DNA from: Roseivirga thermotolerans
Lineage (GTDB): Bacteria > Bacteroidota > Bacteroidia > Cytophagales > Cyclobacteriaceae
Direction: 5' to 3'
Assembly (NCBI RefSeq): GCF_014653175.1
Contig: NZ_BNAG01000002.1
Coordinates: 62,001 to 126,000, forward strand
DNA length: 64,000 nt
Position 1 is the first letter of the stretch; the number at the start of each line of letters is the position of its first letter. A model generated the notes under the pieces. The model did no database searches, was not told the origin of the DNA, and worked only from the letters and a program-made list of their open reading frames with translations. Of the stretch, positions 4,018 to 54,773 are shown piece after piece. A program made the position numbers and the translations under genes.

Positions 4018-4056
4018 ACTTAAAGTTAGCCGAAAACCTGTGAAGCTTTAAATAAA

Positions 4057-4257
4057 ACTGAGTTCGATGTACGAAAAGAACGTCATACCGGAAAAACAGG
4101 CCTTAAACTCTCAAAAAAGGCTGTTTTATCCGGTATCTCAACCGAGCCTAAATGAGATTGCGGATATTTTCCTTTGCGTATATGAAGTTTTCAGAGGAAA
4201 ATTCCGCAATGACGTCCTAAGAGGGGATTTTTACTACTTACTTACATCGAACTCAGG
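4057..4257. mobile_element. MITE-like element, copy 1 (201 bp)
   Basis: First of three near-identical elements (others at 34585 and 54151). The right end reads CTTACATCGAACTCAGG, and the left end is its inverted complement with two or three changes. A perfect 9-base direct repeat TTAAATAAA flanks it at 4048-4056 and 4258-4266, as expected of a target-site duplication. Inside are two hairpin arms (CCGG-AAAACAGGCC type and GCGGAT-TTTTCCT type) enclosed by ACGTCAT/ATGACGT. It sits between the M20 peptidase promoter region and the 3' side of mscL. No transposase is encoded. Confidence 0.85.
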
Positions 4258-4268
4258 TTAAATAAAGC

Positions 4269-34151: not shown

Positions 34152-35011
34152 TACACTAGGTGTTTCAATATACTAAAAATGCATTTACAGAAGGCAGGTC
34201 AACCATACCTTACTGCATAAAGATGGCCAATCACCTTTTGAAAAAGATTGGAGCAGCTCCTGAACGAACAACAATCTTTTTTTGAGTAAGAACCAGCAAT
34301 AAATGGGGTATATCCAAATGGCTGACAGGATGGTGTACAGGCTGAAAGAAAGTGTTTTGCCTGAGCCCCTTCTTTGCGCATTTGAATTACTGCCAGACAA
34401 GGTGCGCTGCCGGTAAGAAGGTGGAACTGTATAAATGAATACAATAACCGTTCTTGACGGCTCATATCACTGTTTTCACAGAAGCCATGTGTTTCAGGTT
34501 TTCAGCCGCGCTGTGAGTAACTGAACCAGGCTGTTCAATACTTTAAAGCCGTGCTTTTGTCATACCATGAGTTAATTATTTTAACCTGAGTTCGATGTAA
34601 GAAAAGAACGTCATGCCGGAAAAACAGGCCTTAAACTCTCAAAAAGGCCTGTTTTGTCGGTATCTCAACAGAGTCTAAATGAGATTGCGGATATTTTCCT
34701 TTGCGTATGTGAAGTTTTCAGAGGAAAATTCCGCAATGATGTCCTAAGGGGGACATCTTACTACTTCCTTACATCGAACTCAGGTTATTTTAGGTTGCGG
34801 ACTAGTCTAAATTAGATTCCTTTGGAAGGGAGTGTTCTTAAAATATGAGGCTATAATGGCAAGCGGGTATGGAAAAGTATCGCTAAGTTCTGGAAGTCTT
34901 TATGCAGATGTTTAGGCGTTTATTTGAGGCTCAGACCGGCTTAGTAAAAACTTTAATTGGGCTGCAGTAAGGCTTATAAAAAATCTCAAAACTATTTCAT
35001 TTCTTTGCACC
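34152..35011. other. intergenic region of 860 bases, mostly non-coding
   Basis: Contains MITE copy 2 (34585-34784). The remainder, 34152-34570 and 34800-35011, has short open frames with no coding character (Cys- and Ser-rich translations, no recognisable motif). TTTCTTTG at 35000-35007 is a 7/8 -7 match placed only 4 bases before the ATG at 35012. Confidence 0.5.
34585..34784. mobile_element. MITE-like element, copy 2 (200 bp)
   Basis: Perfect 17-base terminal inverted repeats CCTGAGTTCGATGTAAG / CTTACATCGAACTCAGG. Flanks TTATTTTAA (34576-34584) and TTATTTTAG (34785-34793) agree at 8 of 9 positions, consistent with a 9-base target duplication. One base is missing in the right arm of the first hairpin (TTTTGTCGG instead of TTTTATCCGG), which breaks the open frame seen across copies 1 and 3. 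Confidence 0.88.
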
Positions 35012-53932: not shown

Positions 53933-54150
53933 TCCCTCTTTGTAAGGAGGAGAATTCGGTATGATCCGGTTTTTTTATCCCGATCGAAGTCGAGGGGTTG
54001 GCCAAAGATTCTAGTTGTGCAGATCCTTCGACAAGCTCAGGATGGAGAAAATAATGCAGTTTCGGATAGCATGGATGTCTTCTAACTCTCGATAGTAATC
54101 GGGAGAGGTGTCTGCTGGGCGGAGGTGAATTAACTAATATTCTATTTTAA
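53933..54150. repeat. mixed dispersed repeats
   Basis: Includes GATCCTTCGACAAGCTCAGG at about 54021 and TCGATAGTAATCGGGAGAGG with GGGCGGAGGTG at 54085-54130, the second copy of the repeat at 11660. No gene. Confidence 0.5.
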
Positions 54151-54351
54151 CCTGAGTTCGATGTAAGAAAAGAACGTCATGCCGGAAAAACAGGCCTTAA
54201 ACTCTCAAAAAGGCCTGTTTTATCCGGTATCTCAACAGAGCCTAAATGAGATTGCGGATATTTTCCTTTGCGTATGTAAAGTTTTCAGAGGAAAATTCCG
54301 CAATGACGTCCTAAGGGGGATATTTTACTACTTCCTTACATCGGACTCAGG
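54151..54351. mobile_element. MITE-like element, copy 3 (201 bp)
   Basis: Terminal inverted repeats CCTGAGTTCGATGTAAG / CTTACATCGGACTCAGG with one mismatch. Hairpin A at 54182-54227 (CCGGAAAAACAGGCCTT with AAGGCCTGTTTTATCCGG) and hairpin B at 54251-54304 (ATTGCGGATATTTTCCT with AGGAAAATTCCGCAAT) are enclosed by ACGTCAT and ATGACGT. Flanks CTATTTTAA and TTATTTTAG match at 7 of 9 positions. No transposase. Confidence 0.87.
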
Positions 54352-54773
54352 TTATTTTAGGGGTACTTACTTAAGTAGCAAGAAGTATATTTCTGAACCT
54401 AGCCTCCATTTGTGTCTTCACAAATGGCTGTTAAAAGACGCTGTGAGGACACAGCTTGTGGCTAAATTAAGATTGTTTCAATTCTAAAAGAGATAATGGA
54501 GAACCGTCCCTTAGGATGACAACAGAGAAGTCCTCCTGCCTTCGGCCACCTCCTTTTTTAAAGGAGGAATGTTTCTGCTAGTATTGAGAGCAATACTATC
54601 AATCCCTGTTTTCTGATTTCCGTTCACTGATCAACTCATCCACCGATCAACCAGCCACCAAACCCGAGGATTAAAATATTTTTTCTAGATTCTGTCCCGA
54701 AAGGTCAAAACGATCGTCAAACCCATGAATCGCGATTTTTCAAAACGAATTTCAAACTCATAATTTTTAAACA
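54352..54773. other. intergenic region of about 420 bases without a gene
   Basis: Contains CATTTGTGTCTTCACAAATG (54408), a small palindrome, a GTGATCAA/GATCAACC-type repeat at 54600-54660 related in inverted form to 48506-48540, and the leader of the YCII gene. No coding frame is supported. Confidence 0.4.

Follow-up and report, generated by a model that had tools for sequence, protein, structure and literature searches.

Three near-identical elements recur in a 64,000-nucleotide stretch of Roseivirga thermotolerans DNA (the window), and they raise two questions: what are they, and what moved them? The genome containing the window comprises 4.21 Mb in 12 contigs and is 99.99% complete. A preliminary description made from the window had read the elements as MITE-like, with a 9-bp target duplication, ends of no named family and no transposase of their own, so that an insertion sequence with the same ends would have to act in trans. 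We conclude that the element is very probably a non-autonomous MITE of the IS982 type that carries a pair of REP-like hairpins as cargo.

The repeat family in the window and the genome

All three elements were found where the preliminary description had placed them (Table 1). They measure 203, 202 and 203 bp when the outer A and T of the inverted ends are counted, and the literal TTAAATAAA repeat reported beside copy 1 is present.

Table 1. Positions in the window of the three elements and their parts
Feature	Positions	Strand	Remarks
Putative MITE, copy 1	4056..4258	+	left end has A for the outer C at 4057; genome match G000:C2:66058-66257
Left 7-bp target duplication, copy 1	4049..4055	.	TAAATAA
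Right 7-bp target duplication, copy 1	4259..4265	.	TAAATAA
Tail-to-tail CGTC-headed REP-like hairpin pair, copy 1	4081..4214	+	covariance model match G000:C2:66081-66214
Putative MITE, copy 2	34584..34785	+
Left 7-bp target duplication, copy 2	34577..34583	.	TATTTTA
Right 7-bp target duplication, copy 2	34786..34792	.	TATTTTA
REP-like hairpin pair, copy 2	34609..34741	+	covariance model match G000:C2:96609-96741
Putative MITE, copy 3	54150..54352	+
Left 7-bp target duplication, copy 3	54143..54149	.	TATTTTA
Right 7-bp target duplication, copy 3	54353..54359	.	TATTTTA
Left IS982-type terminal inverted repeat, copy 3	54150..54167	+	ACCTGAGTTCGATGTAAG; such ends occur on IS982 elements
Right IS982-type terminal inverted repeat, copy 3	54335..54352	-	one change
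REP-like hairpin pair, copy 3	54175..54308	+	unit A 54175-54234 (CGTCATGCCGG..CCGGTATCTCA), linker, unit B inverted 54247-54308

Three copies in the window had been taken to imply many in the genome. With copy 2 as the query the genome yielded 28 matches, 25 of them near-full-length (90-100% identity) and three partial. One of the partial matches (L026/L327) is a decayed copy with both ends degraded, and the expectation is thus borne out by 25 near-full-length copies and one decayed copy in 4.2 Mb. A genome search for the end, also proposed in the preliminary description, found 44 occurrences of the 14-base end CTGAGTTCGATGTA (at most one mismatch) and one of the reversed control. The repeat family is far beyond chance. 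The copies are 91-98.5% identical to their own consensus, with a median of 96%, which lends moderate support only to the further claim that their spread was recent. Two lone end-like matches (C2:654832 and C4:90677) were dropped, the surrounding sequence being unlike the element, and when the genus was scanned for the 17-base end (three mismatches or fewer) the matches listed outside the window's genome were mostly chance-like.

Both orientations are represented among the 25 near-full-length copies. By mechanical ORF calling, 11 of the 25 lie between convergent genes, 11 between genes in the same direction and three between divergent genes, the last against an expectation of 25% (p = 0.10). 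The same ORF calling places one copy only, L016 (G000:C2:685471-685672), inside an open frame. Contig G000:C2 (917 kb), which holds the window, has 12 of the 25 copies on 22% of the genome (binomial 0.003), an excess that may reflect either local hopping or regional tolerance. Copies L022 (G000:C3:502500-502696) and L024 (C2:628405-628605) share about 230 bp of left flank as well as the element, at 91% identity; they are a duplicated segment and not two independent insertions.

Target duplications and an empty site

Both ends could be read in 24 copies; the remaining one, L018, is damaged at its left end and was left out of the count. In all 24 an A stands to the left of CCTGAG and a T to the right of CTCAGG. 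The flank positions that would have to match these bases in a 9-bp duplication hold the required T and A in 9 of the 24 copies each. Because the outermost A and T are invariant and yet unmatched in most flanks, they are part of the element. We accordingly reject a 9-bp duplication in favour of one that is 7 bp long in most cases and ranges from 6 to 9 bp. Counted in this way, the duplication is perfect in 17 of the 24 copies (6-9 bp; exactly 7 bp in 12) and not in the other seven. Mispaired left and right flanks give a perfect duplication in 2.0% of cases; the corresponding binomial probability of 17 in 24 is 4e-24, a value that takes the copies as independent, though the left flanks of L022 and L024 are duplicates of each other. 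All 17 perfect duplications begin with T and finish with A. Each copy in the window has a perfect 7-bp duplication, including copies 2 and 3, whose duplications had been doubted and which are both exact and identical in sequence.

The preliminary description had also suggested a comparison with empty sites. For one insertion, L017 (G000:C1:384153-384354), we joined the flanks and searched 19 genomes of the genus, all of which matched at least one flank. In G013, G018 and G016 the junction is spanned by one continuous alignment that lacks the 200-bp insert. Seven genomes (G001, G002, G003, G005, G006, G012 and G014) have 14-203 bp between the two flank matches and five (G004, G007, G008, G010 and G011) have 0.77-1.15 kb, the gap expected with the element present being about 320 bp; the matches are on different contigs in G015, and one flank alone matched in G009 and G017. 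The test shows that the element is absent at the aligned site in three sister species; it does not show an exact single target, the intergenic sequence being too diverged for the target to be read at single-base level. With duplications in 17 of 24 copies and this empty site, transposition with target duplication, claimed in the preliminary description, is shown as far as comparison of sequences can show it.

In the sister genome G012, a hairpin pair (L079, G012:C2:33912-34044) lies about 0.6 kb from a conserved gene pair (G012:C2:34631-35370). The same conserved pair holds an insertion in the window's genome.

The inverted ends and the missing transposase

Ends of IS982 elements are described (PMC7335449) as beginning with AC and following the consensus AC(N)6T(N)5TT, with duplications of 2-10 bp. 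The 18-bp end ACCTGAGTTCGATGTAAG agrees with four of the five conserved positions, the last T being an A, and the element's 6-9 bp duplications (mode 7) fall within the reported range. The ends, for which no family had been named, are of the IS982 type.

Complete insertion sequences with such ends were found in other genomes. An exact scan for the motif AACSTGAGTTCGNNNTAAG in 390 genomes of the order matched seven genomes, and no match to the reversed control was seen. The 984-bp element L161 has both ends and an IS982 transposase that scores 255 bits against NF033520 (NCBIfam, IS982; cut-off 130 bits). From the window's own taxonomic family, L123 is 1032 bp long and has an IS982 transposase (266 bits, NF033520), AACCTGAGTTCGAT on one side, a more changed partner on the other and a duplication of 5 bp, TTTTA. 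L116, which belongs to the window's own genus, has AACGTGAGTTCGGGATAAG ahead of an IS982 transposase of 260 bits; the left end alone is seen there, the stretch at the expected right-end site being masked. A 1049-bp element of Gelidibacter (L224) has both ends and a transposase found by tblastn.

In genome_contigs, 94 stretches contain the 19-base end without a mismatch, compared with about 2 expected by chance (a hand estimate). Eighty loci with this end comprise nine with an inward IS982 transposase, 19 with a partner end at MITE distance, 28 near a contig end (one of which, L249, also has a 50-bp end pair) and 24 with none of these. An IS982 match lies inward of 10 of the 83 end copies at these 80 loci and outward of none of the 83 (Fisher 0.0015), in a comparison for which IS982 queries only were used, the longest frames of hitless slices were viewed by eye, and the inward slices were shorter than the outward ones (51 of 83 versus 79 of 83 reach 600 nt). 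The end is kept letter for letter far beyond the genus, the nine loci with an inward transposase being seven from Cyanobacteria, one from Thioploca and one from Gelidibacter, the sole member of the Bacteroidota. Duplications at the 20 MITE-size pairs of this sample, scored as for the window's family, are 5 bp long in 12 cases and 4, 7 and 8 bp in one case each, and there is none in five; set beside the window's family, these values indicate that duplication length varies between hosts. From the shared ends we infer strongly that the transposase belongs to the IS982 family.

IS10/IS50-like ends start with CTGA. The ends described here contain CTGAG, and the duplication was first read as 9 bp, as might be expected of a MITE that belonged to a different DDE family, such as an IS10/IS50-like one, whose duplications are 8-9 bp long. 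However, the duplication is mostly 7 bp and the element starts with AC, PF01609 has no match at E 0.001 in the window's genome, and the transposases identified beside such ends, in an end-copy search with IS982 queries only, are IS982. PF01609 matches eight places in five of the 19 genus genomes; L116 is the only one of these loci with a matching end, and it proved to be IS982. We regard an origin from another DDE family as extremely improbable.

The preliminary view of a MITE-like element that depends on an insertion sequence in trans is supported by these findings. Insertion sequences with such ends were found elsewhere (both ends in L123, L161 and L224, the left end in L116) and not in the window's genome, where NF033520 and PF01797, like PF01609, have no match at E 0.001. 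Within the genus, NF033520 matches two of the 19 genomes, above the cut-off in G007 and below it in G008, and G007 has no hairpin pair among the covariance-model matches listed. No parent was found; the IS982 elements viewed, unsystematically, showed no sequence in common with the family beyond the ends. As this genome has no IS982 transposase, the family looks stranded here.

DDE transposases bind and cut the ends of their elements. An IS982-family enzyme would have acted at the 18-bp ends and inserted the element at AT-rich T-N(4-7)-A sites, giving mostly 7-bp duplications. With this enzyme absent from the assembly, the family may have spread earlier, or by way of an enzyme that has since been lost or was passing through.

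The hairpin pair and its relation to known systems

The preliminary description missed a pair of REP-like hairpins in the interior of the element. Unit A (CGTCATGCCGG...CCGGTATCTCA) and the reversed unit B (TGAGATTGCGG...CCGCAATGACG) lie tail to tail between the ends, and each has a CGTC head followed by complementary AT, as in the CGTC-tagged REP families. CGTC families 1-4 have stems of 8-9 bp, loops mostly of 4-5 bases, a tail near CCA and mostly head-to-head pairing, whereas the units here have longer, interrupted stems, long loops, the tail TCTCA and tail-to-tail pairing. Given these differences in stem, loop and tail, we call the units REP-like and not members of a CGTC family.

The fold of copy 3 is predicted at -88.3 kcal/mol (z = -11.3 versus shuffles). 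An alignment of 19 hairpin pairs, five from the window's genome and 14 from sister species (L004, L022 and L025 were excluded from the 22 extracted as near-duplicates), has 41 consensus base pairs, 14 of which are changed on both sides (compensatory changes across the genus), and a covariance model made from it matches at least 13 of the 19 genus genomes. So stable a fold, the double changes and the siting of the copies, with few between divergent genes, could also belong to a structured RNA or a regulatory cassette that has been conserved for its function and copied by ordinary duplication. We consider that origin improbable: fold and compensation are expected of any maintained inverted repeat, and the precise ends, the target duplications and the empty site in sister species show transposition. 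The two readings do not exclude each other: an effect on transcripts is possible for a mobile element too.

IS982-like ends were sought within 75 bp of 45 hairpin pairs that are not part of the 25 full copies: seven in the window's genome and 38 in sister species, with a tandem array in G013 and matches that were weaker or unlisted left aside. Scores above the 99% level of shuffled arms were reached by 14 pairs, from six species, and 12 of these pairs are at or above the 99.9% level. In 10 of the 14, the distances from the pair to the ends are 23-24 and 50-54 bases, the arms of the window's family being 25 and 44. The other 31 pairs are without IS982-like ends. The architecture of a pair within ends is common to part of the genus, and end-less pairs are common as well; these may be decayed MITEs or may have moved otherwise. 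The G013 array (L310 996-2541; G013:C23:84795-86340) consists of six tandem units spaced about 289 bp apart, of which the last is incomplete; every unit has a hairpin pair headed by CGTC, with a CTAGTCTTAGG..CCTAAGACT palindrome close by.

The end-less pairs indicate that pairs may also spread alone, and the core of the element is a REP-like inverted pair. Both would fit a REPIN-like element in which a RAYT (an HUH tyrosine transposase) moves the hairpin pair and the inverted ends are incidental. To our knowledge, however, HUH enzymes of the RAYT type make no target duplication, and the copies do have target duplications. Genes matching PF01797 occur in 14 of the 19 genus genomes, in two Y1 transposase classes: one of about 137-182 aa with strong scores, the other mostly of about 170-220 aa, RAYT-like and with weak scores. 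One study (PMC6006769) describes a subclass of such genes, mainly from Bacteroidetes, whose flanking structures are atypical and recur at other places in the genome. By contrast, the 20 RAYT-like genus loci that we examined, out of about 38 weakly scoring PF01797 places listed, contain two heads and 10 tails (one mismatch), or 0.6 per locus versus 0.4 in shuffled sequence, and nowhere a head and tail together as a unit; at L345 a lone tail and a lone head lie on opposite sides of the gene, about 0.45 and 1.1 kb from it. With no PF01797 match in the window's genome and no complete hairpin unit beside the gene at the 20 loci, a RAYT was rejected as the mover, and we judge this reading very improbable. 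On the IS982-type MITE reading, which we prefer, the two CGTC-headed hairpins would travel as cargo, because they are situated inside the duplicated copies.

Inverted pairs headed by GTCA are found inside IS982-ended MITEs of G323 and G210 (another family of the order), of Aquimarina and Cellulophaga and of a Flavobacteriales genome. A GTCA..TGAC pair is present in 16 of 31 elements with interiors longer than 30 bp, versus 6.3% of block-shuffled interiors, counts that overstate independence, the elements being related within about five genera. At a stricter match level GTCA (14 of 31) has the highest count among seeds containing G or C, and it is equalled or exceeded by AT-only seeds (AAAA and TTTT 16, AATT 15, ATTT 14), as AT-rich hairpins would give. 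By the 4-mer test 15 of the 31 have no GTCA pair, including the window's L001 (one head changed), two from G323 and three from Cellulophaga, and none was found by this test in Lutibacter, Ekhidna, Tannerella, Calditrichaeota or one cyanobacterial element.

Minimal IS982 palindromes of 50-53 bp, made of two ends and a short loop, occur in G047 (L158, L163, L172 and L177) and in Lutibacter (L249 5885-5934), and some of them have short target duplications. The four G047 elements, from four of five pairs listed, are 53 bp long and consist of ends only. Compatible with the preferred IS982-type reading is an origin in two steps, in which such a palindrome arose and its loop was subsequently invaded by a REP pair. 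The minimal palindromes lend this some weight, as do the REP pairs within palindromes of A. variabilis and H. neapolitanus reported by Di Nocera et al. (PMC3733652). On the other hand, no intermediate was seen in the genus, and similar arm lengths recur across species, so that the event, if any, was old; we think two steps possible and rather doubtful.

The element resembles IS982 insertion sequences such as IS1187, IS195 and ISCca4 in its ends, which start with AC and share four of the five conserved positions, and in duplications within 2-10 bp; it differs from them in having no transposase gene, in its length of about 203 bp (845-1282 bp for the insertion sequences) and in its unrelated interior. 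IS982-derived MITEs are already known. MITECca01 of Cardinium cOegib, about 240 bp long and derived from ISCca4, is likewise a non-autonomous, multi-copy element of the IS982 type, according to the accessible sections of its description (PMC9769881), which contain no mention of REPs that we saw. Its parent insertion sequence is present there in intact copies, whereas the element described here has no parent in its genome and carries a REP-like pair.

CGTC-tagged REPs occur in several phyla, Bacteroidetes included, and have no dedicated transposase, as reported by Di Nocera et al. 2013 (PMC3733652). Like the units described here, they are palindromic sequences in inverted pairs, with CGTC followed by AT; the units differ from them in the stem, loop, tail and orientation given above. 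As CGTC REPs are reported without a dedicated transposase, IS982 is a plausible vehicle for CGTC-headed REP-like pairs, a link for which we found no paper in the literature searched; this is not proof of absence. Hairpin pairs inside IS982-type ends with target duplications offer a concrete and testable route by which CGTC-tagged REPs could spread. Only tentatively do we extend this to a general role, in which IS982-family transposases, DDE enzymes acting on ends around the pair, would be the vehicle and the "missing transposase" of CGTC-headed REP-like pairs throughout the Bacteroidota, and the end-less pairs would be the remains of decayed or truncated MITEs.

A similar relation has been proposed for QMITE2 of Coxiella burnetii, in the part of the report consulted (PMC5896051), where REPs are regarded as shortened MITEs. 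QMITE2 is about 190 bp long and has inverted ends and duplications of 7-9 bp, and its shorter form is a REP; unlike the element described here, it belongs to a different host and sequence family, and no IS982 parent is named for it in that part. As in the proposal for Coxiella, the family described here suggests that eroded MITEs may be among the palindromes currently classed as REPs.
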